41,110 nucleotides of DNA from a virus: IMG/VR virus record IMGVR_UViG_3300050821_008370, positions 1 through 41,110 of that record; one strand, written 5' to 3'. The notes beneath the pieces were generated by a model. That model saw only the letters and a program-made list of their open reading frames with translations. It did not search any database and had not been told where the DNA came from. Shown here in pieces: positions 21,732-38,679 of the stretch (position 1 is its first letter; every line of letters begins with the position of its first letter). The position numbers were made by a program, and so were the translations under genes.

Positions 21732-22966
21732 GCGTCTCCAGCCTGGTCGGTCGGGCGATCGCCGCCGATCCAGCCCTGGCGAAGCGTATTCGCCCAGCCT
21801 GACGTGTCAGTCGTCGACGCATTCGGATACAGCGCCGGATAAGCCTGATCGAGAGCCTGGCCGACGTTGATGTTGCGATCGGCCGTATTGATCATCTGCG
21901 CTGGCTTGTTGACGAAATATTTCGAGGCGAACGGACCCGCGATTCCAAGCCCCGTCGAGGCGATCTCACTGCCGCCCAGATAGTGCCCTGCAGCCCAGCC
22001 CGTTACGCCGGTTGCGGCATGGGCGACGATGCCGGGGTCAGTCGGTTGAGCCAGCGCGCCCTGCAGCTTGGCAAGCGCCGGCTGCGCCGGATCATTTGCC
22101 GGTAAAGCGTTTTGCTGAGCCTGGACGCTGATGGGAAGAGTATCGTCGCCTGACGCGGCGCGCGTGCGCCAATTCCAGGCCTCGCTGCCGGTTCCTGGCT
22201 TGCCCGTAACGTAATCCGAAACTCGCTGCACCGCCGGCGCAGTCACATCGCCTAGTCCCTGCATGACTGTGCCGCCGGCCGCGCCCCAGCCAGCGTCCTT
22301 GGCGACTTTCAGAGCGTCGATGCCGTTAGGATCGCCCGCCTGGTGCCCAGCCGAGCTTAGCGCCGCCGCAGTGCCGCCTTCCACCGCCGCGGTGCCGTAG
22401 CGCCCTGCGTCAAGGAGCTCAGCGCCGCCGCGGATAAGCTTGCCTGGCGTCGCCACCATCTTCATCTCGCCGGTGCCGGGAATAGCGTAGGTCAGAGCGT
22501 TGACGATCGGCCCCATTGGCCCGAGCGCTGCTTGTGAATTAGCGGTGCGAGCACGGATGTCCTGAAGGTTTTGTCCGGTTATCTTCGCTTGCGCATAATC
22601 CGCGCCGCCAAATGAAACATCGTCGAGCGCTGCGTTGCCGTAATCTTGCGCCGTTGGAGAGTAGGTCTTGGTGACCCAGTCGCGCCAGGTCTGAGGCCGA
22701 TCGAGGTTCGCCGGTTGCGGATGGAAAACGTCGTAAGCCAAGCCTGACCAAGTGCCGTCGCCTCGCGAGTCGCCAGGCGTCGAGGCGGTTTGTTGGACTG
22801 GAGTCGAACCGTAATCCTTAAGTCCAGGGATTTTAGTTGGCGTGCCCTGCGCAGTCGTTGGCGGCACCTGACCGCCTTGTGATTTCGGATAGACGGTCTG
22901 CTTCGGCGGCGCATTATCGTCGTCGCCATAGTCGGTTAGGCCAGGGATCTTCGTCGCTTTAGGCAT
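21719..22966 (-). CDS. Virion-associated protein, ejection-protein candidate (415 aa)
   Basis: Not recognised by family. Last gene of the late operon. The N-terminus carries two copies of TKIPGL(T/K)DYG (about residues 5-14 and 44-53), possibly docking motifs. The centre is Gly/Ala-rich with hydrophobic stretches (ALGPMGPIVNALTYAIPG; ATGVTGWAAGHYLGG) and amphipathic helices, as in podovirus DNA-ejection proteins that insert in the envelope. Position after the lysozyme-like virion protein fits an internal or ejection protein; this is inference. Confidence 0.6.
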   Translation of the reverse strand: MPKATKIPGLTDYGDDDNAPPKQTVYPKSQGGQVPPTTAQGTPTKIPGLKDYGSTPVQQTASTPGDSRGDGTWSGLAYDVFHPQPANLDRPQTWRDWVTKTYSPTAQDYGNAALDDVSFGGADYAQAKITGQNLQDIRARTANSQAALGPMGPIVNALTYAIPGTGEMKMVATPGKLIRGGAELLDAGRYGTAAVEGGTAAALSSAGHQAGDPNGIDALKVAKDAGWGAAGGTVMQGLGDVTAPAVQRVSDYVTGKPGTGSEAWNWRTRAASGDDTLPISVQAQQNALPANDPAQPALAKLQGALAQPTDPGIVAHAATGVTGWAAGHYLGGSEIASTGLGIAGPFASKYFVNKPAQMINTADRNINVGQALDQAYPALYPNASTTDTSGWANTLRQGWIGGDRPTDQAGDAQWW

Positions 22967-22969
22967 GGA

Positions 22970-24583
22970 TCACCAACTCGATGGAGAGCTACTGCGCAGT
23001 TTCCGCGTGTCCAATCCGCGCTGTTGCCAATTGTCGAGCATCTCGTCTTTGAGATACGGCTTGTCCGCGAGAAGCGCTTTGCCGTCTGCGATTTCCGAGG
23101 CAGGGACAGGCTGCGCAGCCGGAAGGGCATCAGCGCCGCTGCCTTCTTTGTAGAGTTGACCGCCTTTTTTGAAAGCGTCATCCAGCCACGGCGCGTATTG
23201 CGGATCCATGTTTGTGACGTTGCCGGTGTTTCCGTAGTTCGCAGCGATTGCTTTCTTGGTCTTGGTCGTCGCGCTGTTGACCGCGCCGTGGATGTAGTCC
23301 TCATAGCTCTGGTTGAGATTCTGGGTCATCGTGATCGCGTCTTTGAGCGGTCCAACCTCTTGCTGGGTCACGCGTGTGCCGGTGCCAGCCATGCTGTGCA
23401 TAGCGGATTCCGTCGTCGCGCCGCCGATCCGCTTCAGAAGCGCGACGGCTTGCGCTTCCTCGTTGGTCAATCCGACATATTTCGCCAGAATTGTCGGAAC
23501 ATCGGTTGCACCTTTGTCTTCCAGCGCTAGCTGAGCAATGGCTGATTTGCCTGGCGTTGTGAGGATGCTCTTCAGTCCGGGCGATTGCTTCAGCGACGCC
23601 AAATCGCCCTGCAGCGTCATGGCGGTTTCGTTCTTGTCGACGAGCTCGTTCGACGCCGTCTGCCGATCGTCGGACTTCGCCTTCTCATCCGCGGTGTATT
23701 GCGTGAACGATTGGATACTGTTGGGCGTCCACGGCATGGCTGAATCGGGCTGGCCCTTATGCGCCAAGCGCCAGGCGTTCTGCGCTTCGATCATCGCGGC
23801 GTTCTGCGTGCCTCCAAGCTCACCGACGATGCCCGATTTGATATCGCTGACCGTCGAGCCGGCTGTTCCTCCTGGGCCGCCGCCAGGCATGTTGTTTAGC
23901 TGCGTGAGCGTCGCCATTCCCGGCGTCGGCGTGCCGAGCGCGGCGGCGATCTTTCCGGCCATGCCTGGATCCGCAAGAATGCCCGCTCTGAGCGCCGCTG
24001 GGTCCATGTGGAGTTGCGCGGCAAGAGCATTGAACTTCGCTTGTCCCACTGGCGAATTGTCGTTCGCCATCTGACCGATCGCGTTGGCGCGGTCCTGGCC
24101 CTGTTGCTGAGAGCCCAGGCTCATCTGCGTCGCCGCGATCTTGGTCGGATCCGGCATCGTCGTGTCGAACATCCCCGAAACCATCTGCCGATCGCGTGGC
24201 TGGGCGAACGCGGCGAAGCCCATCCCAAGCGCCTTGTTGAAGCCCTGAGCGCGCTCTTGGTATTGGGTTAAATTCATCATCAAAGCGCCGAGACTTTGCG
24301 GCGTCTTGGTCGAATTTGGCTCTTGATTGGGTTGCTGAACGCCGGTCGCGAGCGCCGCTCCCGTGGCTGCGTCTGTCGCATCTGGCGCAGCGGCGGCTCC
24401 TCCGCCAGGCGCAGCCGCTGCTGCAGGAGCCGCGGCGGCGGCCGGCAACGGATTGCCGTTGGCGTCGAGCCCCAGCGCGGCGCGGTTGCGCCGCTGATTT
24501 TCATTCGACCAATCCGCGATGTCCTGTTCCGGATTGTCGGTGTCGCCAGTGACGTACCTGGCCCAATCAAATGGTCCCGCCAT
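22970..24583 (-). CDS. Virion-associated protein, unknown (537 aa)
   Basis: Not recognised. The start MAGPFDWARYVTGDTD is followed by a long Ala/Pro linker (residues 45-80). Then come helical regions typical of internal virion proteins, with Gln-rich segments (NLTQYQERAQGFNKALG), LYKEGSGADALPAAQP and a C-terminal helix. Three base pairs separate it from the next gene. Together with the 415-residue protein it may form the ejectosome; no enzymatic motif is visible. Confidence 0.6.
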   Translation of the reverse strand: MAGPFDWARYVTGDTDNPEQDIADWSNENQRRNRAALGLDANGNPLPAAAAAPAAAAAPGGGAAAAPDATDAATGAALATGVQQPNQEPNSTKTPQSLGALMMNLTQYQERAQGFNKALGMGFAAFAQPRDRQMVSGMFDTTMPDPTKIAATQMSLGSQQQGQDRANAIGQMANDNSPVGQAKFNALAAQLHMDPAALRAGILADPGMAGKIAAALGTPTPGMATLTQLNNMPGGGPGGTAGSTVSDIKSGIVGELGGTQNAAMIEAQNAWRLAHKGQPDSAMPWTPNSIQSFTQYTADEKAKSDDRQTASNELVDKNETAMTLQGDLASLKQSPGLKSILTTPGKSAIAQLALEDKGATDVPTILAKYVGLTNEEAQAVALLKRIGGATTESAMHSMAGTGTRVTQQEVGPLKDAITMTQNLNQSYEDYIHGAVNSATTKTKKAIAANYGNTGNVTNMDPQYAPWLDDAFKKGGQLYKEGSGADALPAAQPVPASEIADGKALLADKPYLKDEMLDNWQQRGLDTRKLRSSSPSSW

Positions 24584-24899
24584 ATGCTGACGCCTTCAGT
24601 TTAATGTGGGGTTTCGGCTTGCGCGGCGGCGGGCCCTTAGACTTGAGCCGGATATGCGGTTTGCCGTGCGCCGGCCGCTTAGCGAGGGCGGCGAGCGGCC
24701 CGGGCACGTTGGGCGAGGGAGCCATCGGCTGCGGGCCCGCCATGCCGGGAGGCGGTCCTTGGCCCGCCAGGCCGGCTTGCCCGGGCGGTTGCGGGGCCCC
24801 GGCGAGGTTGTTGCCCTGGCCCTGAGCCAGTTGCATCCGCAGCTGGTCTTCGGGATCTTCGTCGACTTGCTCGGAGAGAATGTCAGCTGGGTTGGGCAT
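24567..24899 (-). CDS. Small Pro/Lys-rich protein (110 aa)
   Basis: Starts MPNPADILSEQVDEDPEDQL behind a strong GGGAGG; the longer upstream frame is a shadow. An acidic N-terminus is followed by Gly/Pro-rich sequence and a basic C-terminus with two similar PHI(R/K)LK motifs (KPHIRLKSK, KPHIKLKAS). Overlaps neighbours by 17 bases at each end. Function unknown. Confidence 0.6.
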   Translation of the reverse strand: MPNPADILSEQVDEDPEDQLRMQLAQGQGNNLAGAPQPPGQAGLAGQGPPPGMAGPQPMAPSPNVPGPLAALAKRPAHGKPHIRLKSKGPPPRKPKPHIKLKASAYGGTI

Positions 24900-25512
24900 T
24901 CTGGCCTCCCTGGAGTCCGGCGAAGAACCCTTGGTTGTTGTAGTTTCCGGCCCCTGTGGTTGGGGCTCCCTTGTTCTGCCAGTTCTGCAGGAATTGCTGC
25001 AGGACGCCCGAATTTGCCGAGGGCAGCGCGGATTGGGGCACCGTCGCGCCAGGCGTTTGAATCTGACCCGGGTTGGCGAGCGCGGCGAGGTAAGCCTGGC
25101 CCATATTGGGCGCGGACGTCGGGGCCGGCGCGGGCGTGGCGACAGACGGCGCAGCGCCTGGCGTGAAGGCGGGGTCCGTGCCGCCAAAGGCGGGGCCAGG
25201 CCCGCTGCCGCCCGGGTTCATGCCGTAAAATAGGCTGTTCGCCGCGCTAGGCGTCGCGGTCGCTGGCGACGAATTCAGCGTCGTCGAGGGCGGCATCGCC
25301 GGCTGCGCCGACTGCGCCGGCTGACCGGCTTGCTGTTGGGCCACGAACGCCTGGTAGCTGCCGATCGGATTGCCGTGCGCGTCCGTCGGCGTGCCGGCGT
25401 ATTGCGCCAAGCTGGGCAGTGGAACGCCCTGATAGGGGCTGTATTTATTCGCGAACTGGCTCGGATCGAACTGAAACGGGTAGGGATAGATGTTGGCGCT
25501 GTTGTCAGCCAT
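24883..25512 (-). CDS. Low-complexity virion protein candidate (209 aa)
   Basis: From MADNSANIYPYPFQ; the four-codon longer start is unlikely. Rich in Ala, Pro, Gln and Gly with a short aromatic start, lacking clear globular structure. Not recognised. It lies between the peptidoglycan hydrolase and the small Pro/Lys-rich gene, overlapping both. Confidence 0.55.
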   Translation of the reverse strand: MADNSANIYPYPFQFDPSQFANKYSPYQGVPLPSLAQYAGTPTDAHGNPIGSYQAFVAQQQAGQPAQSAQPAMPPSTTLNSSPATATPSAANSLFYGMNPGGSGPGPAFGGTDPAFTPGAAPSVATPAPAPTSAPNMGQAYLAALANPGQIQTPGATVPQSALPSANSGVLQQFLQNWQNKGAPTTGAGNYNNQGFFAGLQGGQNAQPS

Positions 25513-27046
25513 AGCCGTATCCAATGTTGGGGTCGACGCCGTAGCCTAGCCCTTGCGGCGGGGGCTGGACTGAGTTGAGAGACACGCCTGGCACCTGAGC
25601 GTACATGGGGCCGCGAAGGCCGGCAGCGGGCAGTTTTGGGGCTCCTGGAGGCGCATCCGTCCAAGTCAGCGGCTGCGAGGCGGCGTTGATCGTCGTGCCG
25701 TAGGTCTGTTGGACGTTGGCGAGGCCAGGCGAAACATTGCGCGCTCCGGGCGCGAAGCGTTGGTTGGAGAATTGCGCCGCGGCGGGCGAAGAGTCCTGCG
25801 GCGCTTCTGTCGCCGGCGTCGCCCCCTCTTTGAGAAGCCTTGCGTTCGAAGCGGAGAGAAGTTGCTCCATCGGTGATGGAGCGTTGGTCGGATTGCCCTG
25901 TGCGTCTGTCGGAGCGCCGGTCAGCTTCGACCACGCCTGGCCGGCCCAGGACTGATCCGCCGGCGCGGCCGCGGGAGCCGCTGCAGAAGGCGTCGTCGAC
26001 GGCGCGGCGTCGGGCCCAAAGCCAGTCGTGTTTCCGGTCCCGTGATTGGCGGTCTGCAGATCGTAGACTTGCTGCAGCGTCCGCGGCCCGTCTTTGCTGT
26101 TGAAGACGGTTGGATTCGCCGCTGCCTCTTTCGGGAAAAGATCCGCGGCGTTCGCGCCGGGATTCTTGCTCATCTGAGCGTAGAAATTCGACGCTCCGCC
26201 TGGTCCGAGAAAATGCGCCAGCGCGACGTTCTTGTCGGTGATCGGCACGCCAGCCTTCGTCAGCGCGTCGACGTTCTGGCTAGTCAAAGCCTTCATCGCC
26301 GCGGTTTGCTGATCGAGGCTCGCGTCCTGAATGTTTTCCGGCAGGTTGAGCTCCGGATTCGCGGAGCGAACGCTGGCGTAAGTCGACGGCGTGAACTGGT
26401 AATAGCCGCCCGCCGCACTCCAGCCGCCCGTGGCGTTGGGGATGTTCTGCCCGCCCGACTCATGCATCATCTGTGTGTGGTAATAGTCGTTGACCGGTGC
26501 GAGCGGGCCGGCGATCGAGACGTTCTGATAGTTGATCTTGGTGCCTGGCACGCCTGGGCCCGCATATTGCGTCCCGGAGGTCACCGGCGCGGCTGCGGCC
26601 CAGACCTTGTTCCAGTCGCCGCTCGCTCGCGCTGTTTTCAGGCTGTTGAGAAGATCCGGCGTTTGCTCGAGCGGCAGCGGCGGAAGCTGCCAATGATTGA
26701 ACTCCTTTGTATTGCTGACGCCGTAGGGATTGTGCAGCCCGTTCGCCGCGGCGATCGCCGCCCATTGCTTGGTGATCGGACCATTTGGGCCGTCGAGGCC
26801 GGAAATGTCCGAGGCGAGCCCATAACCATGCGAAGAATTGCCGCCGGCGTCATAAGACGAGCCGGTCGTCTTGTCGTCTCGGTAGCCCGACATCACGCCG
26901 AGATGCAGCCCTGCGGCGTTCGCCTGGCGAAGCGCGGCCGCCAAGCTCGAGGCGAACGCTGGATTCATATTCGACGTGTCGCCAGGTCGATCCGGATGCT
27001 GGGAAAGCCCGTTTAGGTAGGCGCGATCGTCGTCGACGCTAGCCAC
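25505..27046 (-). CDS. Virion peptidoglycan hydrolase: M15 peptidase + lytic transglycosylase
   Basis: 513 residues from a GTG start with GAGGGG upstream. Residues 25-125 form an M15-type peptidase: SxHxxGxAxD at 71-80 (His73, Asp80) and ExxHW at 115-119 (His118), the zinc and catalytic set. Residues 190-290 look like a soluble lytic transglycosylase: MMHESGG with catalytic Glu196, then GGYYQFTPSTY (213-223) and ALAHFLGPGGA. The last 200 residues are Ala/Pro-rich. It would cut both peptide and glycan strands during DNA entry. Its location among virion genes, away from the lysis cassette, supports an entry role. Confidence 0.85.
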   Translation of the reverse strand: MASVDDDRAYLNGLSQHPDRPGDTSNMNPAFASSLAAALRQANAAGLHLGVMSGYRDDKTTGSSYDAGGNSSHGYGLASDISGLDGPNGPITKQWAAIAAANGLHNPYGVSNTKEFNHWQLPPLPLEQTPDLLNSLKTARASGDWNKVWAAAAPVTSGTQYAGPGVPGTKINYQNVSIAGPLAPVNDYYHTQMMHESGGQNIPNATGGWSAAGGYYQFTPSTYASVRSANPELNLPENIQDASLDQQTAAMKALTSQNVDALTKAGVPITDKNVALAHFLGPGGASNFYAQMSKNPGANAADLFPKEAAANPTVFNSKDGPRTLQQVYDLQTANHGTGNTTGFGPDAAPSTTPSAAAPAAAPADQSWAGQAWSKLTGAPTDAQGNPTNAPSPMEQLLSASNARLLKEGATPATEAPQDSSPAAAQFSNQRFAPGARNVSPGLANVQQTYGTTINAASQPLTWTDAPPGAPKLPAAGLRGPMYAQVPGVSLNSVQPPPQGLGYGVDPNIGYGYG

Positions 27047-28310
27047 CGAGCGCCCCTCTGATCTGAGGCGGCCGCACGCGCCGGCGATGCTGGGTGCGCG
27101 AAACCGGCGTCAGCGTCCGCAGCGCGCCGGCCGAGCCCACCGGCGTCGCGCGCGAGAGCGCGCCGAGCACGGTTGGATGAACGTGAAGCACGCCGGTGTG
27201 CGGATGCTGCGCGACGGCTTGAGGCATGACCTTGGCGATGTCCTGCGCCATCGGTCCGCGGGTTTTCGGAGCGCCTTTCTTCTGGCCTTTCCAGTTGAAA
27301 TCGTAGAGCGGAATGCCGGTCGGTCCGTGGACGCCGACTTTCTTTAGATTCTTCTTCAGCCGGATGTCCGACGTCGGCGCTTTGTAGATGTTGCCGAGCG
27401 CGCCGATGCCCGCGCCGGCGAGCGCCGCCCAGTCGGTGGGCGTGTAGGTCTGGGTATCGCTCGCGCCTGTTGTCGATTGGCCGTAGGGCGTCATGCCGAG
27501 CGCGCTCTGCAGAACGCCGAGCTCCTGGGTCGGATAGCCCCAGGCTTGCTGGAATTTCTGCATCTGAGCGTTGATCTGATCCTGCGCCGTCGACATTTGC
27601 TGCGTGCCGGCGGTGTTCTGCATGGTGAAGGCGTTTTGGGCTTGCTGGCCCGCCGTCGCCGCCGTTGCGTTGAGGCCGCTCGAGGCAGCGATATCGGAAT
27701 TGATCTTCGCTTGCTGCGCCGCCTGGTTGGCGGTCTGCGCCGTCATGTTGTTGCCGATGTCGTACTGCGCGCCCTGCACCGCTTGAGCGTAGTTCGCCTG
27801 GTTGAGTTGCTCGGCCATCTGGGTTTCGCCAAGCGCGCCCTGAGCCTGGGCCACGCCTTGCTGAACGCCGAAACGCGAGCCGCCGAAAGCGCCTTGGTTG
27901 ACGGCGTTGCCGGAATTCGTGGCGAGCGTCTGCCCCAGCTGTTGCTGCATGATCGGCAGCGTCGCGTTAATCACATTTTGCGTATAGGGATTTTCGTATT
28001 GAGACAGGTTCGCGCCAGCGAGCGTCTGCGGCAGAATCGACGAGGGCGTCTGGCCGAGCGCGCCGGTAAAGCCGGCAGTCGCGGCGTTGATCTGAGGCAG
28101 ACCAGCGTTGCCCGCCGTCGCTGCAGTATTCCAGCTTTGCTGCAGTTGCTGGCTAACATTAGGGGTCATCTGCCCCTGGTATTGCTGCAGCGGAGTCGTG
28201 GCGATTTGCTGTGCGAGAGCGTAATTTTGTTGCGCGGCGTCGTTAATCCACGGAGGTAATTGCGTGGTTTGTTGCGTTTGCTGTTGCTGGGAGCCGGTCT
28301 GTCCGCCCAT
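27039..28310 (-). CDS. S74-chaperone-like virion protein (423 aa)
   Basis: Residues 1-300 are Gln/Asn/Ala/Thr-rich and probably fibrous or helical (for example NYALAQQIATTPLQQYQGQ). Residues about 315-375 match an S74 intramolecular chaperone: SDIRLKKNLKKVG, IPLYDFNWKGQ, RGPMAQDIAKVMPQAV. A basic tail ends with QHRRRVRPPQIRG. Such proteins are usually annotated as tail-fibre-domain proteins; here the Gln-rich body next to the lysozyme suggests an internal or tail protein. Its stop overlaps the hydrolase start. Confidence 0.75.
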   Translation of the reverse strand: MGGQTGSQQQQTQQTTQLPPWINDAAQQNYALAQQIATTPLQQYQGQMTPNVSQQLQQSWNTAATAGNAGLPQINAATAGFTGALGQTPSSILPQTLAGANLSQYENPYTQNVINATLPIMQQQLGQTLATNSGNAVNQGAFGGSRFGVQQGVAQAQGALGETQMAEQLNQANYAQAVQGAQYDIGNNMTAQTANQAAQQAKINSDIAASSGLNATAATAGQQAQNAFTMQNTAGTQQMSTAQDQINAQMQKFQQAWGYPTQELGVLQSALGMTPYGQSTTGASDTQTYTPTDWAALAGAGIGALGNIYKAPTSDIRLKKNLKKVGVHGPTGIPLYDFNWKGQKKGAPKTRGPMAQDIAKVMPQAVAQHPHTGVLHVHPTVLGALSRATPVGSAGALRTLTPVSRTQHRRRVRPPQIRGALGG

Positions 28311-28312
28311 GG

Positions 28313-28672
28313 CTACAGATCCTTATGGTAGAGATAGCTGGTCGTTTTGATCTTCCAGCCGTTACGATCGGCGTCGCGGGCCCAGCCACGCCTCCCGTAC
28401 GCGGCGACCAGGTCTACGTTCATTCTGTTGGCGAAAGCTAGAACCTCGCCGTGCAAGATCCGGCAATCCTTGAGATCGCCAATCGCCGCCACGATTTCCA
28501 GCAATCGTCTCCGCGGATAAACGGAGATCTGGGTCACGATCCACGAATTGTTGTGGACGAAGCTCTGCATCCGGCCGTCGCTGATTCGCTCGAGGATGTC
28601 GTTGAGCGCCCATAGGCCGCCTTGGATGTCGAGCGCGCGGGCGAGCTTGCGGTGATAGAAAGCCTCGTTCAT
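28313..28672 (-). CDS. Conserved small phage protein near the S74 genes (119 aa)
   Basis: Starts MNEAFYHRKLARALDIQGG, overlapping the previous stop. Segments ISDGRMQSFVHNNSWIVTQI, RRRLLEIVAAIGDLKDC and NRMNVDLVAAYGRRGWARD follow a pattern I know from small podophage proteins with a GNAT-like look (central sheet, RRGW turn). Catalysis is not shown. It sits between two S74 genes, so a chaperone or tail-assembly role is possible. Longer frames upstream are shadows. Confidence 0.65.
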   Translation of the reverse strand: MNEAFYHRKLARALDIQGGLWALNDILERISDGRMQSFVHNNSWIVTQISVYPRRRLLEIVAAIGDLKDCRILHGEVLAFANRMNVDLVAAYGRRGWARDADRNGWKIKTTSYLYHKDL

Positions 28673-29754
28673 CGGGCCGCCTCGAGCGCTTCGACGCGCG
28701 CCTGAAGCTCCTGCACGGTGCGTGTAAGCGCAGCGACGACCGCATTCATATTCGGAGCTTGAAGGAGTTCGTCGTCCTTCTTGCCCGTCGCCGCCGTCTC
28801 GAGGAGATCCTCCTGCAATTCGTGAGCGATGAGCCCCCACCGCTCGCGCGAATCGGCCTCGACCACAGGTCGGCCGCCGCTCTTCGCGTGAAACGATTTC
28901 TGCCGATAACTGACCGGACGCAGTTTCTTGACCTGGTTCCAGGTCGAGGCGAGCGGCTTGACGCCTTCCTTGATTCGATAGTCGCAGGTTGGGTTGGGGA
29001 GTTCCCTTGAAGTCCAAAAATTGTAGTAATTCGGACCATCGGACCAACCGCCACGGTAGAAATTACCGTTGGCGTTGAGGCCGACGTTGAGCCCAAAGGC
29101 GTCAGGAACGACGAAGCTGATGAAAGCGTCGTTGCCTGGCTGCGCTATCAAGTAATGCAGCCCGGGCCCATTCTGGGAAATCGCGCCAGAAACGTAGAAG
29201 TTCACTTGATCAGCGATCGCAGCGCTGAAACGCATATAGCCGTCCGCGTCGAGGTCGATCGATGCGCCAGTCTGGTCGTTGCGCAGCGAGATTGCGCCGC
29301 CCACCCAACCGACATAGCCTTGGCGCGCACTGTTCTCGTCGAAAAAACCGACAAAGGCGTTGCCGCCGGCCGCATCGTCCGCCGTGATGAAGATCGACCC
29401 CGGGACGCCCAGGAAGCCCGTAAGCGTCCCGCCTTCCATCGGCAAAAACTCGCCCGATCCGATCGGCACCGGCGCGCCCATCGTCCCTGAGCCGAGCGCC
29501 ATCGGAGCCAGGTACGCGACCCCTGCATTGTCGACCTCGAGCATGTAGACGTTCGGACTGCCGCCCTGCGTGTCGAAGCCGCGTAGCATGATCCCCGGCA
29601 GCGCCTCCTGGTTGCGCAGCGAATCCTGAAAGCCATGCCGGCACCAGAGCGCGAAGTTGCGCAGATATTGCGAGGTCTGCGTCGACAGCTTGGGATCGTT
29701 CGGAACGTCGGGCGGCGGCCGCGCCGAGCTCGACGTCTGAGTTTGCGCGACCAT
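28669..29754 (-). CDS. Tail fibre/spike with C-terminal S74 chaperone
   Basis: 361 residues. The N-terminal 60 residues would attach to the virion; the middle is beta-rich with repeated Gly turns (GYVGWVGGAISLRNDQTGAS). The C-terminus is a clear S74 peptidase/chaperone: CDYRIKEGVKPL, VKKLRPVSYRQK, WGLIAHELQEDLLE, MNAVVAALTRTVQELQARVE. S74 domains trimerise the fibre and then cut themselves off. Preceded by the 155-base gap with twin palindromes. Confidence 0.85.
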   Translation of the reverse strand: MVAQTQTSSSARPPPDVPNDPKLSTQTSQYLRNFALWCRHGFQDSLRNQEALPGIMLRGFDTQGGSPNVYMLEVDNAGVAYLAPMALGSGTMGAPVPIGSGEFLPMEGGTLTGFLGVPGSIFITADDAAGGNAFVGFFDENSARQGYVGWVGGAISLRNDQTGASIDLDADGYMRFSAAIADQVNFYVSGAISQNGPGLHYLIAQPGNDAFISFVVPDAFGLNVGLNANGNFYRGGWSDGPNYYNFWTSRELPNPTCDYRIKEGVKPLASTWNQVKKLRPVSYRQKSFHAKSGGRPVVEADSRERWGLIAHELQEDLLETAATGKKDDELLQAPNMNAVVAALTRTVQELQARVEALEAAR

Positions 29755-29817
29755 TAAAGGCCCCCCTCGTTAGGGCGAAAACAGCCGCTCGTCTCGAGGC
29801 AATTATTGGCTTTCATT

Positions 29818-29880
29818 CCGAGAGAATTCGTTCCATAATTCTCTCGGAGCGAAACGACACTCGCAATGCCGTTTCGCTCC
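29818..29880. promoter_or_regulatory. Two tandem perfect 11-bp inverted repeats
   Basis: First: CCGAGAGAATT (29818-29828) / AATTCTCTCGG (29837-29847), 8-base loop. Second: GGAGCGAAACG (29846-29856) / CGTTTCGCTCC (29870-29880), 13-base loop; the two share the bases GG. No T-tracts follow in either direction. They lie 30 bases before the plus-strand HTH gene and 64 bases upstream of the leftward fibre gene, so operators or an mRNA leader structure are both possible. Confidence 0.7.
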
Positions 29881-29909
29881 TGACCACAACGAGAATGGAG
29901 CTTCTCATC

Positions 29910-30644
29910 ATGGCTAAATCGAAACCCCCTCCACGAAACACGCCACGCTCTCCCATCGTGACAATCAACATTACGAGCGAGATCATCGGCGCGGCAATTC
30001 CTCGTGATTCCAAAAACTGTATGATTGCCGAAACTGTTAAAGCCACGGTCCCAAATGCGCGCGGCGTGCTCGTCGACACTTCGACGATCCGCTGGACTGA
30101 CCCCGATAAGGGGCTGCGCTACGTTTATTTGACGCCTGGCGTTGTAAGGGACGCGATCTTTAAATTCGATTTCGGCCGTAAGATTGAGCCGTTTTCTTTT
30201 GTTCTTCGTGGAGCCTGGGTGTCTTCCGCGCGCTGGCACGGGAAGGACAGGCGCATTTCGCTCGCGGGATGGCAAAAAACGAGAGAGCGTCTCAAGCAAA
30301 TTCGCTCGGAACGAAAACTCGATTGGGAAACAATCGCGAGGGAAATCGACATCTCTCCTGGCACACTGACCGCACGAATCAGCGGCGGCGATATGCCTAG
30401 CGGCGAAAATGCTGATAAAATTGAAGCTTGGGTTCTGAAGCAAACAGGAGAAGAACCCGCGCCACGCGTCAAATCGCTGGCTGATAAGGTTGGCGGTCCT
30501 GTCCGACTGAGAAGCCGAAATCAGAAGGGCTTTCAAGAACCTCAACTCATCGGCGGCCGCCCTCCAAGGACGCCCGCAAATATGATTACGCGGCAATACG
30601 GGATGCGTGCGTTCGATTGGAAGCGAGAGGAAGGGGAGCATTAG
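29910..30644 (+). CDS. HTH protein on opposite strand inside the late operon (moron candidate)
   Basis: 244 residues from ATG 29910 (GGAG nine bases upstream). Residues about 15-105 form one domain (VTINITSEIIGAAIPRDSKN ... IRWTDPDKGLRYVYLTPGVV, KIEPFSFVL) that I have seen, without known function, in other phage proteins. Residues about 125-175 are an HTH (ERLKQIRSERKLDWETIARE, IDISPGTLTARISGG). A basic tail follows. It is the only plus-strand gene in the late block, with its own leader and palindromes; its stop overlaps the end of the gp10-like gene by four bases. Likely an independently expressed accessory regulator. Confidence 0.75.
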   Translation: MAKSKPPPRNTPRSPIVTINITSEIIGAAIPRDSKNCMIAETVKATVPNARGVLVDTSTIRWTDPDKGLRYVYLTPGVVRDAIFKFDFGRKIEPFSFVLRGAWVSSARWHGKDRRISLAGWQKTRERLKQIRSERKLDWETIAREIDISPGTLTARISGGDMPSGENADKIEAWVLKQTGEEPAPRVKSLADKVGGPVRLRSRNQKGFQEPQLIGGRPPRTPANMITRQYGMRAFDWKREEGEH

Positions 30645-32302
30645 CGATCTCCCCGCGGGACAGCGTCAATCAGATGCTGTCCCACCGTCACCGGAAGAAC
30701 CGCGCCCGACGAAGCGACGCCGTTGACGATCTGACCAGGCGGGATAGCGAAATCGATGCGCAATCGAAGGTCGCGTCCGGTGACCCGCAGGTCGACATAG
30801 CCGTCGCTGCGCACCGGCGAAGGAACGGATTGGAGCTCAGGCGTGCCGAGGCTGCGACTGTTGCGGTAATACAGCGAATAGAGGACGTTGCTAACGTTGC
30901 CGCCGATGTCCGGAAGAAGCTGTTTGACCGTGGTCAGCGTGCTCCCGGCCGTAAAGCCCACCATGTAAGGCGAGGTGTTCGCGCCGTAGCCGAAAACATT
31001 GAGGTCGAACGTCTCGACCCAAGGCAGATCGCAGTCGTTGTACTGGTTGCCGTACTCATGCTCGTACGAGACGAGCCCATTGGCCATGATCGTGTGGCTG
31101 GTGTAGCTGGCGGTGATCCCGGCCGAGCGGGCGCATTGCGCCTGGCCCCACCAGCCCTCCTTATAGTTGTACACAACCGCGCGCGTATTATAACCGCTCG
31201 GATTGGTCTGCGGCCCCTGCGGGTAAAACCACCAAAACTCGTTGAAGTTGGCGACATGCACCGCGCACGCTTGCTCGCGGACGTTGAGAAGATCGATGTC
31301 GTCGTCGACCCAGGCGCGGACCATGCACTGGATCGGCAGAATCGAGGTGCCGTCGTACGAATAGGGGCCCTGTTGGCTGAACCAGAGCACCATGCTTGAG
31401 GTCGTCGCCAAGCTTTGCGGCGACCACGGCGTGCAATTATCCCCTAGCTCGGTGTAATTGTAGACGTAAGGCGTGCCAAGATAGCGGGAGGCATAGGCCT
31501 TCTTGCCGGTGAAGAAGAGCGTGCCAGTGCGCGAAGCGATGGCGCAGATGATCGGACTCGAGGGCTCGATGTCGATGAAGCCCGCTTGCGTCGTGACATC
31601 GGAATAATTCCAGTTGGTGTAGTCCTCTTGCTCGCACCAAGCGAAGCGGCGGAACGAACCGCCGTCGATGTCGCCGTTCTCGTCTAGCGTGCCATCGTTG
31701 TAAGAGCCGAAAATCTGGACAAAGCGCTCTGGCGTGACGACGAAGCAGCGCCCGTTCGGCACAACGGAGTTGGCGTCTTTCGGCGGCACCACCTGCGCCA
31801 CCGTGCCAGGCGGATCCGCCGGATTCCAATAGAGAAGCCGCGCATCGGCGGAGGTCATGGCGAGGAGAACCGCGCCGAAATTGCTCAAGCTGTAAGCATC
31901 GGGCACGCGGTCGATGGCGGCGTCGGAGCCGATCGAACGCGGCGTGCCATAGGTGCCGTCGTTGTAGAGCCCATCGCCATAGCCGCCTTCGCTCGGCGGC
32001 GTCGGCGGCATGATGCCGTCGACCGGCGTGATGTCGAGAAGCGCACCGCCAGTGTCGACGTAGAGGTTCGATTCGCACAGGTAGGCGACGTGATAATTCT
32101 GGGAAAGATCGTAGAATCCGTGGATCGCCTTGCAGCGTGAGGCGAAGGTGTAATTGTATTTCGCCTGGCCGCCAACGGGCGAAAGCTGGCCTTCGACCCA
32201 GCGCACCATGTTGGCGGCGGCATAATTGGTCGAGCTCATCTGCTTCGTCGCCGTCGCGACGACGCCAGGCGGAATGCTCAGCGGTTTAAATTGCGAGCTC
32301 AT
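30641..32302 (-). CDS. P22 gp10-like tail hub / DNA stabilisation protein
   Basis: 553 residues. The N-terminal IPPGVVATATKQMSSTNYAA, NMVRWVEGQLSPVGGQAKY and the repeated beta sequence (YHVAYLCESNLYVDTGG, LLAMTSADARLLYWNP, LFFTGKKAYASRYLG) are typical of the propeller-like tail hub of P22-type podoviruses, which plugs the portal channel and carries the tail needle or fibres. T7-type tubular tail B is a possible alternative. The start overlaps the tail-collar stop by four bases. Confidence 0.7.
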   Translation of the reverse strand: MSSQFKPLSIPPGVVATATKQMSSTNYAAANMVRWVEGQLSPVGGQAKYNYTFASRCKAIHGFYDLSQNYHVAYLCESNLYVDTGGALLDITPVDGIMPPTPPSEGGYGDGLYNDGTYGTPRSIGSDAAIDRVPDAYSLSNFGAVLLAMTSADARLLYWNPADPPGTVAQVVPPKDANSVVPNGRCFVVTPERFVQIFGSYNDGTLDENGDIDGGSFRRFAWCEQEDYTNWNYSDVTTQAGFIDIEPSSPIICAIASRTGTLFFTGKKAYASRYLGTPYVYNYTELGDNCTPWSPQSLATTSSMVLWFSQQGPYSYDGTSILPIQCMVRAWVDDDIDLLNVREQACAVHVANFNEFWWFYPQGPQTNPSGYNTRAVVYNYKEGWWGQAQCARSAGITASYTSHTIMANGLVSYEHEYGNQYNDCDLPWVETFDLNVFGYGANTSPYMVGFTAGSTLTTVKQLLPDIGGNVSNVLYSLYYRNSRSLGTPELQSVPSPVRSDGYVDLRVTGRDLRLRIDFAIPPGQIVNGVASSGAVLPVTVGQHLIDAVPRGDR

Positions 32303-33090
32303 TGATACCGAATGATGAAGTTGATTGCGAGGTAGGGCGGAATGTTGTTGTGCGGCGTCCCACTGCCCTGCACGTCGGTCGTCGTGATGCCAGTCAGGGC
32401 GGCGTAGACTCCGACGCCTGGCTGTTGCGTGTCGGTATTGCCGCCGAGGTTCCCGGCGGCGTCGGTATTGCCGCCGAGATCGCCAACCGTGCTCGTCGCC
32501 GCAGTCTCAGCCCCTGCATAGTAAAAAACAGGATTGGCATTCACCGGCGAGCCAATCCCGCTCACCCATTCGGTGTAAGTGTGCGCATGAGCGCCGGTAT
32601 GGATGGCGTGCGCGTGGCCCCCGGTCGCAATGGCGTGAGAATGGGCGTTCTGATAGGCGCTATGCGGATGACCGGGATCGGGAACGTTGTGTTCGTGCGC
32701 CGGCATTTCGCCATAGGCGAGCGTGTGGTTCGCCTCGCCGCCAACGGAGGCGAGCGGGAAACTCGCACCGGCTCCGATCGGGAAGATGTTCTGCGTCGGA
32801 GGCAGGTTAAAGTTCGGCCCTGAGCCGCCGTATTGATAGCCGATAACGGCGAACAGCGCGGCGTAAGTCGTGGTGGAGAGCGACGAGCCGTCGCAGATCA
32901 GCCAGTTTGTCGGCGGCGTGGCGGTGAACCAAAGCGCGCCCGAGCCGATCGGATTGATGCCTTGTTGGTTGGCGAAGACGAGGGCGTCAATGTCGTCCAT
33001 GTCGTCGTTGAGAAAGCCGCCCCAGGTCGTTGACGAGCCCTGGACTTGCGGCTTGACCCAGCCGTAGTTCTTGGTCGTGGTTTCAACCAT
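32299..33090 (-). CDS. Tail collar domain protein
   Basis: 263 residues. The collar domain covers about residues 48-115 (PIGSGALWFTATPPTNWLICDG, YAALFAVIGYQYGG, FNLPPTQNIFPIG). A His-rich HxH array follows (AHEHNVPDPGHPHSAY, HSHAIATGGHAHAIHTGAHAH), which in phage fibres binds metal ions along the trimer axis. It ends PYLAINFIIRYQ, the usual end of this family. Its start overlaps the stop of the 58-residue gene. Confidence 0.85.
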   Translation of the reverse strand: MVETTTKNYGWVKPQVQGSSTTWGGFLNDDMDDIDALVFANQQGINPIGSGALWFTATPPTNWLICDGSSLSTTTYAALFAVIGYQYGGSGPNFNLPPTQNIFPIGAGASFPLASVGGEANHTLAYGEMPAHEHNVPDPGHPHSAYQNAHSHAIATGGHAHAIHTGAHAHTYTEWVSGIGSPVNANPVFYYAGAETAATSTVGDLGGNTDAAGNLGGNTDTQQPGVGVYAALTGITTTDVQGSGTPHNNIPPYLAINFIIRYQ

Positions 33091-33259
33091 TGGGGGTCAC
33101 CGCAGGGTTGGGCTCGTTGCCCTCGTTGAGCCAACGTACGTATTCCTGACAATCGATGTTGTCGGAATCCATAGGGATGAACGCGCCGTCTTCGTCGCGT
33201 ACGATAATGTAATCGTGGATTTGATTGCGCATTGGATCCCAAATAAGCGTATAGGTCAT
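33083..33259 (-). CDS. Small fibre-associated protein (58 aa)
   Basis: MTYTLIWDPMRNQIHDYIIV, then FIPMDSDNIDCQEYVRWLNE. The pattern IPxDxxNxDxQEYxxWLxxGN is common in short phage proteins next to tail fibres (XkdW-like or fibre-assembly proteins). It lies between the collar gene and the first collagen-like fibre; its stop overlaps the collar start in ATGGTTGA. Confidence 0.75.
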   Translation of the reverse strand: MTYTLIWDPMRNQIHDYIIVRDEDGAFIPMDSDNIDCQEYVRWLNEGNEPNPAVTPNG

Positions 33260-33261
33260 GA

Positions 33262-34551
33262 TTAGAACTCCGCGCTGGCTCTATAAGTATATCCGTATAG
33301 TATGGCATCGGCTGCCGCTGTTGTTGCTTGCGCTGCCATAGTAAAATGATCAGGACCAGCATCATTTATAACCATCGCAGCATAATTAAGTGATGGCGCA
33401 ATACTCATATCCATGGTCGGAGTGGCGCGCATCCATGTGGAAAACTGGATTGGATTATAAGCAAATCCATTTGATGTTGCCCAATTGCTAACAGTACCGG
33501 TACCTGAACAATAATACCTCTGACAACACGCCAGTCTAGTCGGCAAGTCATCCGGCACGAACGGCGTTGCTACGCTGCCCGCTTCGAGCTTGACGCCAGT
33601 GAGCCCCCAAGTGGCGTTGTTGGTGCCGGTGACGTGAACCGCGCCCTGTGCGGCAAACGCCACTCCTCCAGCCGGTCCGGTCTGCCAAGCATTCATAATC
33701 GGAGTCTGAGCGCTTGAGCCGCTGCCAAGATCCCAGATGAGGGCTAGCCCGGGGCCATTTCCAGCCGGCCAAGCCGCCGCAGGACCGCTATCGCCAGGAA
33801 TGGTGAGAGTGATCTTTGTCCAAGTGTTCGCAGTCGGTAAGCTGTAAGTCGTGACGTAATAACGGAGGCTGGTGCCGCCTGACGCGGTTGGATTGCTACT
33901 CGAAAGAGCGAAGCTGAAATTTCCGATCAGGCTAGAGCGCGCCCAGAACGACACGGTGACCGACTGGTACCCCGGTGCGCCAAAGCCAAGATCAGCCACC
34001 GCGTCGGCTTCAATCGTATGCCCGACAAGAAGCTGCGCCGCAGCGGCGGACGTGTAGGCGCTTGTCGATTGAACGCCGAGGAAATAGGGAAATCCTGGCG
34101 CTTTGGTCGTGATCACGGCCAAGTTCTGGCCCATGTTGAACCGCGACGTCGCCTCAATATTCCCGCCATAAAAACGGTCAGGGCAGTAAATCCAGCCAGT
34201 CGCCAGAGCGGGAGTAGCCGCCCCAGCATTATGCTGGTCGAGGAGCATGTCGCCATTGTCGACGCGGTTCGGGTTGGATCCCGGTCCCGCCGGTCCCGCC
34301 GGTCCCGCTGGGCCCGTTCCTCCCGCTGGCCCTGTCGAACCTGCTGGGCCCTGTGCTCCCTGTGCTCCCTGTGCTCCCTGTGCTCCCTGTACTCCCTGTA
34401 CTCCCTGCGTTCCCGGCGGTCCTTGCGGACCTGTCGGGCCCGCGGGCCCTTCTGGTCCCGGAATTCCTGGCCCAGCCACCCACTTCACGCCGTCCCAGAT
34501 CCAACCCTGGAAGGCTTCGCCAACAGTGGGAGAGGCAGGAAAGTCGAGCAT
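33262..34551 (-). CDS. Collagen-like tail fibre 2
   Basis: 429 residues. The N-terminal [21 protein letters not shown] is a common fibre start. Gly-X-Y repeats cover residues about 28-92, including GAQ and GVQ runs. The C-terminal 330 residues form a beta-sandwich-like binding region ([53 protein letters not shown]) ending SAEF. It is a paralogue of the adjacent larger fibre. The last 280 bases are visibly more AT-rich than the rest. Likely adsorption to host surface sugars. Confidence 0.8.
34351..34404. repeat. Six tandem 9-bp repeats coding Gly-Ala/Val-Gln
   Basis: CTGTGCTCC four times, then CTGTACTCC twice, in frame with fibre 2 on the minus strand, coding GAQ and GVQ. Near-perfect DNA identity means copy number can change by slippage, altering shaft length. 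Confidence 0.85.
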
Positions 34552-34575
34552 GTCAGACTTGCGTAGTGGCCATGA

Positions 34576-36921
34576 TCAAAGCTCCGCGCTCATTGAAGCC
34601 ATCGCTTGGGCGTAAGCCAAGCCAACCGCCGTAGCCAAACATTGATTGACAACCATATTTGCTGTAACAGCGCCAACAGCGAGAGCAGAAGAATTTCCGT
34701 AAACGATGCCGGTATAAGCAACCGTAGGCACCGCTCGCATAACAACCGGAAACGGCATTGGAAAATAAAGATTATTACCAGCAGCACTGTACCCAGACAC
34801 TAACATAGCCTGGCCAATGGTCTGATAATACCTCTGGCAATCCGCCATAGACTTGGCCAACGACTGCCGATTGAACGGCGTTGCGACCGAGCCGATCTCC
34901 AGCTTGACGCCAGTGACGTAAAAGGTCGCGCCGTTGGTCCCAACAACGCTGACCGCGCCAGGCGCAGCGAGGGCGTAGGTCGAGCCCCACACACTGGCGG
35001 GGGCGCTGTACGTCCCAGTCCCAGCCCCCAGGCTAAAACCCAGCGTCGCGCCGATTCCACTGCCGGAAAGCGGCCATGCGCCAACCGTGTCACCCGGAAT
35101 CGTGACGCTGATCTTCGCCCAAGTGTTCGCGGTCGGAATCGAATAGGTGAATGGATAAGCACGCTGGATAGCGAGATTGCGGATCCCACCGCTGAACGTC
35201 CCAGTCAGGCTGGAATAGACCCAAAACGACAAGGTGACCGGCTGCGCGTTGGGTGTTCCCCAAGCGAAGTCGCTGATCATGTCGGCTTCGATGTTTTGGA
35301 GGAAGAGGAAGATATCGTTGTTCACAACGGCGTAAGCCGACGACGATGTGAACATCAAGGCATAAGGGAACCCCGGACAGGAGACGTTGGGACGCGTCCA
35401 CGTTCCTTTGCCAGCCTGTATCCCAGAGTATTGCCAGCGATCGATAGTATAACCGGCCGCCGTCCCACCCGCGCCGCTGGCGACGCCACGCTGATCGATC
35501 CGGCAGTCTCCGTTGATGAGCCTGTTGTCGCCAGAACCAGGCCCAACCGGCCCCTGTGGACCCGCTGGGCCGGCCGGTCCTGTTGCTCCTGGCGCGCCTT
35601 GCGTTCCAGGCGGCCCCTGCGATCCAGTCGAGCCTGGCGGGCCTGTTGCGCCAACCGGCCCCGCTGGCCCCTCCGGTCCCGCATTGTTGTTGCAAATTAC
35701 CCATTGGCTGGAATTAACGTCCGTAAACCAGACGTACATTTGCCCGCCAACCGAATCCCACCACAGATCGCCTACAGAGGCCCCTGAAGGCGGTGTGTCG
35801 GAAATGGTGACCGGAGGCCCGGAAGGTCCGCCGCCGCCTGTCTGGGCCGCCCAGGACAAGATCCCGGAGCCGTTCGTCGACAGAACGTCGCCGGGGTTGC
35901 CGCCGTAGATCGCCAGATTGTTTGGGCTAGCAAGAGCGAGGAGCCCGTTGACCGCCAGGCCGCCCGCAATGGTGACGCCCGAGCCATTGAAGGTCGTCGA
36001 GCCATCGGCGCGCGCGATCGTCAGCCAATTGCCGAGAAACCCGCCCGCAGTGGCATAAGCGGTGAGGGAGAAATTCGAGCCGGTATTGTTCAGCCCCTCG
36101 CTCGTTCCATCGCCCAGCATCAATTGCCAGCGCGTCAGCGTCGAAGTCTGCCCGAGAATGGCGCGCTGTTGACCATTCGGAGCGTTGAGCACCAAAGAGT
36201 TGGAGCCCTGAACGGTCAGAACCTGGTTGACCGTCAGGCTTCCCGTGACCGTGCCGCCCGCAATGGGCAGGTAAGGCCCGCCGGTGACCGGCGTAATCCA
36301 CGACAGATTGCCGTTGCCGTCCGTCGCCGGCACCTGGCCGAGCGAACCGCCGCCAAGCTGCAATTGCGCAACTGTGGGCACAGAACAGACAGCGTTCCCG
36401 GCGAACAACAACGCGCCGCTCGTCACCGCGCCGCCCGCGCTGAAGTTGGTAACCCCGGTGAAGGTGCCGCCGCTGGCCGGGACGACCAGATTCCAGGCCC
36501 CTTGAGTCCGCCCATAGGTCTGATTGTCGGGCGCGTCAGGAATGCCGCTCGGATAGCCCTCGAGGTACTCGAGAGTCACCGCCTCCATCGGTTCGACCGG
36601 ATCGCGCGAAAGGAGGACCGGATCGTTAAACGTGATCGAGCCATCGACGCCCGAGATCAGCATCGGCGTGCCGATCACGTTGCCTTTGCCGTCAAGATGA
36701 TTGACCGCGTAATTCGCCGGCGTCGCGCCATCGTTGAGGCTGACCTGCCAGTAAAGCGAACTGATCGTCGCCGGCACGCCGGTGATGGTGATCCCGCTAA
36801 CGCTGGCCGCGCCGCCAGGCGGCTCGCAGCCGCAGCCGTCCTGCCATTCGCCATTGGGCGGCAAACCAGGGGCCCAGTCGTTAGGAACCGTATCGCCGTT
36901 GGGATCGACCCACTGGTTCAT
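34576..36921 (-). CDS. Collagen-like tail fibre 1 (781 aa)
   Basis: The N-terminal 400 residues are a fibre body ([20 protein letters not shown]; repeated [13 protein letters not shown] and [11 protein letters not shown] turns). Gly-X-Y repeats follow at about residues 415-470, then the same C-terminal module as fibre 2: [54 protein letters not shown], ending SAEL. It starts one base into the adaptor stop. Probably the main receptor-binding fibre. Confidence 0.8.
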
Positions 36922-37547
36922 CAGCCGAAACTCCGGACACGCGATCGCGTGAGTCTCGAGCCGCTCGCCTTCGAGAGGTTTTGCTCAGTATTGAGCTTTT
37001 GGATCATGTCTTCGGTGAATTGCTTCGCGTTCGCCGCTTGCGCCTCTTCACCGATCGCGTGGAGGTAGGCGTGCATCATCGCCGCGGAGAGATAGAGGCT
37101 CGGATACTTGGTGTAGACCCAGGAATCGACGGTGTCGGAGAAGACCGGCACCTCGCCAAAATAGAAGATCTGGTACTGGATGCCCTCGACGTCGTCGGGG
37201 CAACCGCCAAAGAAGATCGTCCGCCCCTCGATCGTGTAATGATTGAGGGCCCATTTGTCGGGCAACTTCATAAATTCGTCGCGGCTCTTGTACCGGATCG
37301 GTTTCCAGCCGCCTGGCACCTGATCGCTCGCCATCTCGACCAGATCAAACTCGAGCCAATCGTCGGGAATCGTCGCGCAGCGCTCAGTCGAGGTGACGAT
37401 CGCGCTCTTGATCATCCGATTGTGGCGGAGCTCCTGGTTCATCTTTTGCTCAGCCATGCGCACGAACGAAGTAACGAGCGTCGGTGACCAGTCCTGCCGG
37501 TTCGCCCATTCCGCGATTTGGGTTGTGAAATCCGAGAAATCGGTCAT
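36921..37547 (-). CDS. Head-tail adaptor (SU10 type)
   Basis: 208 residues from MTDFSDFTTQIAEWANRQ, overlapping the previous stop by ATGA; upstream residues of the longer frame are unlikely. Helical start with MAEQKMNQELRHNRM, then a beta part with IPDDWLEFDLVEM, YTIEGRTIFFGGCPDD, YFGEVPVFSDTVDSWVYTKYPSLYL and a C-terminal helix. This is the pattern of the phage adaptor that sits under the portal in SU10-like podoviruses. Confidence 0.78.
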   Translation of the reverse strand: MTDFSDFTTQIAEWANRQDWSPTLVTSFVRMAEQKMNQELRHNRMIKSAIVTSTERCATIPDDWLEFDLVEMASDQVPGGWKPIRYKSRDEFMKLPDKWALNHYTIEGRTIFFGGCPDDVEGIQYQIFYFGEVPVFSDTVDSWVYTKYPSLYLSAAMMHAYLHAIGEEAQAANAKQFTEDMIQKLNTEQNLSKASGSRLTRSRVRSFG

Positions 37548-37726
37548 AGCCGGTCCGTCAGCCACAAGATGAGGACAATGATCAGAATGACCCCGACGAT
37601 GCCGATGCCTGGATTGCCGAAACCATAACCTGGCCGCCAAGGCGCGCCCTGGTAGAAATGCGGCCCGATTCCGCCCAGCAAAACGATGACGAGAATGACG
37701 ACGAGGATCAGACCAAGCGGGCTCAT
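37544..37726 (-). CDS. DUF3309-like small membrane protein
   Basis: 60 residues with two hydrophobic segments (LILVVILVIVLLGGIG and GIVGVILIIVLILWL) separated by a Pro/Gly/Tyr-rich turn. Resembles DUF3309. Next to the holin-like and endolysin genes, it may be a second holin or antiholin; this is inference. Confidence 0.7.
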   Translation of the reverse strand: MSPLGLILVVILVIVLLGGIGPHFYQGAPWRPGYGFGNPGIGIVGVILIIVLILWLTDRL

Positions 37727-38037
37727 TCAGGCGGTCCTCTCGGAGTTCGGCTGAGCCAGTAGGCGACGACCGCGCCGAAAGCGGCGACTAGGCCGCCGAT
37801 CGCTCCCGAGGTGATTTCGTCGGTTGGAACGGTGAAATAGACGCAGAACGTGACCAAGCTGATGAAGGCCAGGATCACCAAAATCGAAACGGTGAGCGTG
37901 CCGCCGGTCTTGTCGAACCGATTGGCCACGATGACCAGAACGATGGTCAGAACAACCGCGATGCTCAGCCCCATCGACGCCGGATAGTCCAACAGCTTCG
38001 GCGTTGGCGGCGGAATGACCAGATTGTTGTCGGCCAC
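37723..38037 (-). CDS. Putative holin
   Basis: 104 residues with three hydrophobic segments (MGLSIAVVLTIVLVIVAN; LTVSILVILAFISLVTFCVYF; SGAIGGLVAAFGAVVAYWL) and polar ends. Size, topology and position directly after the endolysin gene fit a class I holin that forms membrane lesions at lysis. No family signature is recognised. Confidence 0.65.
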   Translation of the reverse strand: MADNNLVIPPPTPKLLDYPASMGLSIAVVLTIVLVIVANRFDKTGGTLTVSILVILAFISLVTFCVYFTVPTDEITSGAIGGLVAAFGAVVAYWLSRTPRGPPE

Positions 38038-38679
38038 TCATCCCCTCGCCTTCCACTTCCGATAAGCTGCGTCCATCTTTCGGTCGTACTGGTTCTGAGC
38101 GTAGCCGGGACCGTTGTAGCCGCGCGCGAACTGGGCCCAGTTCTTGTTGCGCAGCGGCGTGTCGAGCCGATTGCCCTTGATGAACTTCACGAAGGCGTCG
38201 AGATGCGCCGGCGCTCCGGACCACATGGCGTCGACGAAGGCTTGCGAGTCGTCGAAGCCGCAGACGGCGTGGTTCTCACCGAGGATCTGAAAGGTGCCCC
38301 AGGAGCACGCCTTGTTGGCGGCGTCGGCGTTCAACCGACGTGCATCTTCGTAACGGTTATGTTGATTAGTCCCGGTAGCGCCGTAGAGCTTCGAATTCCA
38401 TCCCGACGAAGACAGCGCAACGCCATTGCGATCCTTCGCGGCGGCGTGCGCGCCCTTCGTGTGCTTGTGGAAGATGTGCGCTTCGTACAAGGCCGCGGGC
38501 CGCCCGTCTGGGAGGAAACCGGCACCCGCGGCCTCGACTTCGGCAACGGCGCGGATCGCCGCCACCTCAACGTTGAGCTCCTTCGCGGCGCGCTCGAAGT
38601 CCGCGTCGGCTAGCGTGGTCTGTTTCTCAGGCGCTTTCTCAGGCGCTTTCTCAGGCGGTTTCTCAGGCGCTTTCGCCAT
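38038..38679 (-). CDS. Endolysin (N-acetylmuramidase)
   Basis: 213 residues from MAKAPEKPPEK, with GGGGAGA upstream. After a repetitive Lys/Glu/Pro/Ala tail (4-19), the catalytic domain matches N-acetylmuramidase (DUF3380): AVAEVEAAGAGFLPDGRPAA with Glu47/Glu49, LYEAHIFHKHTKG with Glu66, CSWGTFQILG, and a C-terminal FARGYNGPGYAQNQYDRK. It would cut the glycan backbone at lysis. No signal peptide, so it depends on the holin. Confidence 0.85.
   Translation of the reverse strand: MAKAPEKPPEKAPEKAPEKQTTLADADFERAAKELNVEVAAIRAVAEVEAAGAGFLPDGRPAALYEAHIFHKHTKGAHAAAKDRNGVALSSSGWNSKLYGATGTNQHNRYEDARRLNADAANKACSWGTFQILGENHAVCGFDDSQAFVDAMWSGAPAHLDAFVKFIKGNRLDTPLRNKNWAQFARGYNGPGYAQNQYDRKMDAAYRKWKARG
38623..38670. 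repeat. Four tandem 12-bp repeats in the endolysin gene
   Basis: TTTCTCAGGCGC four times, the third copy ending GCGG, in frame, coding the (A/P)PEK linker at the endolysin N-terminus. Copy number may vary between isolates. Confidence 0.85.

Follow-up and report, generated by a model that had tools for sequence, protein, structure and literature searches.

A rightward gene in the leftward late region

The window analyzed here is the whole of a virus record of 41,110 bases, in which rightward early genes (primase-like, DNA methyltransferase and helicase) come first and are followed by leftward late genes, among them those for the capsid, T, S and fibers. Between T and S resides a single gene on the opposite strand, here called P. 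The original prediction of a 244-residue gene opposed to the leftward late genes is borne out, and no further rightward gene is evident from 21719 to 41110 in the list of open reading frames, a part of which was tested individually.

29910-30644, plus strand: gene P, 244 aa, start ATG at 29910, stop TAG at 30644
30641-32302, minus strand: late gene T, virion structural protein, phrog_3287
28669-29754, minus strand: late gene S, tail fiber with an S74 chaperone domain

The differences between P and its counterpart in a related genome, L001, number 47, 39 and 118 at codon positions 1, 2 and 3, respectively, which shows that P is a real protein gene. There is an alternative in-frame ATG at 29895, inside a hairpin of the leader, but in a second relative, L002, it is not kept in frame.

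Several other features of the window deserve mention. The N-terminal 90 residues of S match a gene of ~93 aa that many relatives carry, and S (28669-29754, minus strand) is here a fusion of that gene to an S74-type fiber region of ~270 residues. Collagen-like GPAGPTG repeats occur in the late genes at 33262-34551 and 34576-36921, both on the minus strand. A second XRE-type helix-turn-helix (HTH) gene, a candidate core regulator, lies in the early operon (18583-18927, plus strand), with copies 65-66% identical in L002 and in another genome, L069.

An insertion at the overlap of T and S

With T as the query, 57 loci were found, and the T/S gap could be counted in the 47 relatives for which both the T end and the S start are placeable. 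Of these, 40 have a gap of ~0 nt and seven one of 146-469 nt, compared with 890 nt in the window, and in most of the 47 the T stop overlaps the S start as TAATG or TGATG. The insert is thus flanked, as that of a phage moron would be, by genes that abut or overlap in the great majority of relatives (40 of 47), and P occupies this site in none of them. Since seven relatives hold other small inserts here, the T/S junction is a modest insertion spot. Where their open reading frames are readable, those inserts contain small genes in the same direction as T, and of all the inserts found only that of the window has an opposed gene. The insert of the sister phage L007 (11644-11793) is a different small gene of 49 codons, cysteine-rich and zinc-ribbon-like.

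29757-30638, plus strand: acquired cassette, comprising the leader and gene P, between S and T, as delimited by the T/S gap comparison
29752-29756: left repeat copy CATTA (TAATG on the minus strand), containing the S start codon
30639-30643: right repeat copy CATTA (TAATG on the minus strand), containing the T stop codon and a displaced start

In the leftward reading, T ends with GATCGC TAATG and S begins with TAATG GTCGCG, and the borders look like one TAATG doubled around an 882-bp insert, forming a 5-bp direct repeat. The right copy also provides the last codon of P and most of its stop. The TAATG is partly explained by the need for a T stop and an S start; for the two extra letters on each side, we estimate the frequency of a chance match at about 1 in 250. 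The doubling may represent a target-site duplication or a microhomology join. The 882-bp insert contains no mobility gene, and the window has no tRNA that could have served as an insertion site.

The former S start and its Shine-Dalgarno sequence remain at the end of T (GGGGAGATCGCTAATG), and from this displaced start a frame of 295 codons runs without a stop through the P gene and leader and ends in the TAATG of S.

29754-30641, minus strand: antisense open frame of 295 codons that begins at the displaced S start and runs to the S start, between the two TAATG copies, with no family match

Conceivably, the reversed insert leaves translation of the late mRNA undisturbed: the chain from T to S would be restored through a decoy antisense frame and the downstream late genes thereby spared polarity, a reading that we regard as improbable. 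The chance that the coding part would be open is 0.12 by the codon usage of the window and 0.003 by that of relatives of P; for the leader part it is 0.075, and for the right phase 1/3. As the genome contains many long antisense frames, of up to 379 codons, and the test is a post hoc one, the frame is a lead rather than a result. If the reading is true, a cassette selected to be open on both strands would represent a novel means by which a gene can persist in an operon that runs against it. That the 295-codon frame is instead the real gene and P its shadow is almost certainly wrong: its openness across the whole insert and its start and end at the two TAATG copies would fit, but P has 34 aligned family members and a divergence dominated by third positions, and the antisense frame matches no family and is interrupted by 4-9 stops in the other P carriers. 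We rejected it on this conservation pattern.

P moves among phages

A profile of P was run over the 47 records of relatives and was positive in two, L001 and L002, which are themselves P hits; the other 45, including L007, gave no match. The sister phage L007 lacks P despite being 99% identical to the window in the capsid, 92% in T and 91% in the helicase, and among the T-encoding relatives searched only L002 has P, at another location. The proposed check of related phages for this segment thus finds it missing from the sister phage and nearly all relatives, and P as a fixed core gene is rejected. Named phage records contained nothing that matched P or the late region at the protein or DNA level, nor anything that matched two relatives of P, and no relative of P was found in GTDB genome contigs.

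Three carriers besides the window are known: L001, L002 and L069. In each, P is the last gene of the rightward early operon, preceded by the helicase and one more gene and followed directly by the convergent late genes; a strong terminator-like hairpin stands upstream of it. The rightward gene that precedes the P leader (L001 6962-7711, L002 7071-7745, L069 5870-6553) looks PEP-CTERM-like, with a signal peptide and a C-terminal VPEPSTWA motif.

The histories of P and the helicase differ. Between the window and L001, P is 73% and the helicase 57% identical; between L001 and L002 the values are 49% and 73%, and between L002 and L069 they are 31% and 86%, so that the two trees disagree. The GC content of P is 0.47-0.545 across the four genomes, against 0.59-0.60 for the three carrier loci and mostly 0.58-0.64 for the genes of the window. 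In the window, GC and GC3 are 0.545 and 0.557 for P, 0.62 and 0.757 for S, and 0.61 and 0.787 for T. The conflicting trees and the low GC indicate transfer of P and its leader among these phages. As in phage morons, the base composition is unlike that of the neighbors and the gene is absent from close relatives; the idea of a moron-like cassette is supported by its absence from the sister, its lower GC, its foreignness to the site and its own leader. At L002 7808-8000 and L069 6630-6837, leader and terminator are nearly common to both genomes before P proteins that are 31% identical, and the leader may be an exchange point for P alleles.

Domains and family of the P protein

P is composed of an N-terminal domain, an HTH region and a tail that carries a conserved motif.

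29958-30227, plus strand: N-terminal domain (residues 17-106), phrog_19191-like, alpha/beta fold
30261-30446, plus strand: HTH region (residues 118-179), Pfam HTH_3, model helices 118-135, 139-146, 150-158 and 165-179
30549-30617, plus strand: C-terminal family motif IGGRPP...RQYGMRAF, from alignments

The predicted HTH is confirmed by a Pfam HTH_3 match at residues 128-172 (E 5e-6, better than the curated cut-off), with which the modeled helices agree. The accompanying domain had been called unnamed, which is correct for Pfam and NCBIfam but not for PHROG, where it matches most of the length of phrog_19191, a family of unknown function with 91 positions (positions 3-84 or 3-85, E 5e-4 and 1.9e-6). 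The match to phrog_19191 spans 80-odd residues, and P differs from that family in having the HTH linker and the C-terminal tail motif as well. The structure modeling that had been suggested was run from an alignment of twelve sequences and gave a mean pLDDT of 75, with ~90 over both domains and a disordered tail. Searches of the PDB with both the sequence and the fold gave nothing beyond weak HTH matches (E above 0.1), and the N-terminal domain matched no solved structure; among viral structure models, P matches uncharacterized Gordonia phage proteins.

Further scans recovered many more family relatives, mostly from larger or unrelated phages. The alignment of 34 members has eight invariant columns (C37, D56, R61, R70, P76, D87, R228 and G231 in P numbering), and the tail GGxxPP...RRxFGxR is common to all of them. 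Genes adjoining family members encode an exonuclease, a RecT-like protein, primase, DNA polymerase, a UvsX-like recombinase, thymidylate synthase or terminase; the P family is a widespread phage family, often beside replication, recombination or terminase genes. With no solved structure to compare, the task of the N-terminal domain is a guess from these neighbors: it probably does the main work of P, an early function related to DNA metabolism or host takeover. By Pfam, the window P alone among family members has an HTH; the P proteins of L001 and L002 align across it, that of L002 also matches phage regulators, and that of L069 seems to keep a degenerate HTH. This distribution, as read from the alignments, makes it most likely that the HTH is a recent addition in the linker within the lineage of these four P proteins.

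Repeats and hairpins in the leader

29818-29847: inverted repeat 1, perfect 11-bp arms with an 8-nt spacer (CCGAGAGAATT-8-AATTCTCTCGG)
29846-29880: inverted repeat 2, perfect 11-bp arms with a 13-nt spacer (GGAGCGAAACG-13-CGTTTCGCTCC), with paired changes in L001, L002 and L069
29891-29906, plus strand: small conserved hairpin GAGAA...TTCTC, with a Shine-Dalgarno-like GGAG (29897-29900) in its loop

Twin contiguous palindromes had been described here. They are indeed perfect and both of 11 bp, but instead of simply adjoining they share 2 bp. Such repeats occurred 0.4 times per shuffle in 100 dinucleotide shuffles of the window, four times at most, and never as an adjacent pair.

The leader of the window aligns with that of L001 over 99 nt, and those of L002 and L069 align over 255 nt. 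The GAGAA/TTCTC stem is invariant in all four leaders. In the common 3′ part, the pairing of the second stem is kept, with changes on both sides in five pairs; the covariation score is reached by 1 of 500 shuffles, and the signal is destroyed when the partner is shifted, the sample being the four known leaders, two of them close. No one-sided G-U changes were seen in this stem among the four. Compared with shuffles, the predicted fold has a z of -3.1 in the window, -3.9 in L001 and -1.4 in L002, the last little better than chance, and in the predicted L001 fold the Shine-Dalgarno sequence pairs with the third repeated segment. In addition, the half-sites recur as sequence repeats (GGANCGAAAC in the window and L001, TCTCACGAAAA in L002 and L069), which fits DNA operators. 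Rfam gave no match in the window, and the single further match of a leader-signature scan, in L066, proved unrelated and coding.

Upstream of the leader in L001, L002 and L069 is a strong hairpin followed by a T-rich stretch, and this terminator-like element suggests that P has its own promoter. Neither a sigma-70-like promoter in the P leader nor a convincing rightward terminator after P, such as a moron might have, was found in the window, so the P transcript may run on antisense to T.

A proposed self-contained cassette and its alternatives

The account that we judge somewhat likelier to be right than wrong is that P and its leader are a horizontally acquired, moron-like accessory cassette that expresses itself and represses itself through the palindromes, with the N-terminal domain doing the main work. 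It builds on the empty site, the 5-bp border repeat, the other location in carriers, the discordant trees, the low GC and the paired changes in the stems. P would descend from a phage family, defined by the N-terminal domain and conserved tail, that is often found among early genes; an XRE-type HTH would have been gained in the linker within the P lineage of the window, and the cassette would have been inserted reversed at the translational overlap of T and S. Given the terminators before the leader elsewhere, P is probably expressed from its own leader, apart from late transcription, either early or constitutively. A P dimer could bind the palindromes, whose repeats adjoin an HTH gene, and repress its own transcription; perhaps it also binds mRNA near its own Shine-Dalgarno sequence. 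Autoregulation by the palindromes is plausible. Against this account stand the failure to find a sigma-70-like promoter in the leader or a convincing rightward terminator after P, the restriction of the Pfam HTH match to the P of the window, and the small set of four leaders, two of them close.

It is also possible, if on balance improbable, that the palindromes act as RNA, as 5′ leader hairpins that control the translation of P or the stability of its mRNA, with the HTH not the reader. The Shine-Dalgarno sequence would then lie in the loop of a third hairpin, and the repeated segments would pair in mutually exclusive ways. The stems kept by paired changes, the invariant hairpin around the ribosome site and the folds of the window and L001 are consistent with this, as is the sequestered Shine-Dalgarno of the L001 prediction. 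It is also favored by L002 and L069, where nearly the same leader precedes P proteins whose differences include the HTH; P may therefore not read the palindromes, and a P-specific operator is weakened in that pair. However, a palindromic DNA operator would show paired changes too, and these changes are compatible with an operator for autoregulation as well as with an RNA hairpin; the missing one-sided G-U changes, the near-chance L002 fold and the Rfam result likewise argue against RNA. Quite unlikely, in our estimate, is a dual counter-defence gene whose N-terminal domain inhibits a host defence while its HTH represses its own promoter via the repeats. A mobile cassette between virion genes, an HTH fused to an uncharacterized domain and inverted repeats near the start would suit such a gene, and AcrIF24 is a precedent for the fusion (PMC9638941), but defence-linked models match the HTH part alone, and weakly (RmrA, E 0.007; PDC-M64C in L002, E 0.008), and other family members lack an HTH and often lie near replication, recombination or terminase genes.

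The original prediction had also proposed a late-operon repressor, or a two-way switch in which P, bound to the palindromes, governs its own gene as well as leftward S or the late operon. This now seems very improbable. Position and geometry, with the palindromes between two divergent starts, are what speak for it, but a repressor would be expected to be conserved with the operon that it controls, and P is absent from nearly all relatives that have the same late operon; the carriers other than the window keep P at the end of the early operon. Operators would be expected at the late promoters, yet in a scan of the whole window, rather than of mapped late promoters, no second full palindrome was found and half-sites occurred at chance level. 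Control of S from the palindromes fares no better: no sigma-70-like leftward promoter was found near S, and in relatives S overlaps T, which leaves no room for a separate S promoter, the two presumably being read from one transcript. Nothing was found that links the leader stems to the late genes, and P is not a fixed late-operon regulator.

Relation to known systems and implications

The self-contained cassette resembles phage morons in being an extra gene between genes that are adjacent in relatives, in its absence from close relatives, in its different base composition and in having its own leader. One example of such accessory genes between virion genes is pid, a late-region moron of P22 (PMC3573128). 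P differs from morons in opposing the operon, in having no rightward terminator that could be found and in belonging to a family that elsewhere occupies early or replication neighborhoods. With AcrIF24 and Aca-type autorepressors it shares an HTH fused to another domain and an inverted repeat upstream (PMC9638941). The HTH DNA-binding domain expected of Aca proteins is present in P, by Pfam HTH_3 and the modeled helices. AcrIF24 recognizes 8-bp half-sites with a 1-bp spacer (PMC9638941), whereas the repeats of P are twin, longer and separated by spacers of 8-13 nt; unlike in Acr-Aca pairs, the cassette in the window has no partner acr gene or second gene, and the likeness is one of architecture, with no sequence relation claimed.

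Control by Aca2 involves the binding of both DNA and RNA. Like P, Aca2 is an HTH protein, with inverted repeats near the ribosome-binding site; by analogy, those of P are possible DNA sites or RNA hairpins. The likeness claimed is one of layout, and binding by P is putative.

At this locus, the entry of an opposed gene into a translationally coupled late operon can be cleanly compared before and after, the ~40 relatives with an empty site serving as controls. The locus also serves to delineate a phage family, widespread and of unknown function, marked by the N-terminal domain and the GGxxPP/RRxFGxR tail, one lineage of which gained an HTH, and it provides a small leader in which control by a DNA operator and by an RNA hairpin could be separated by simple reporters.
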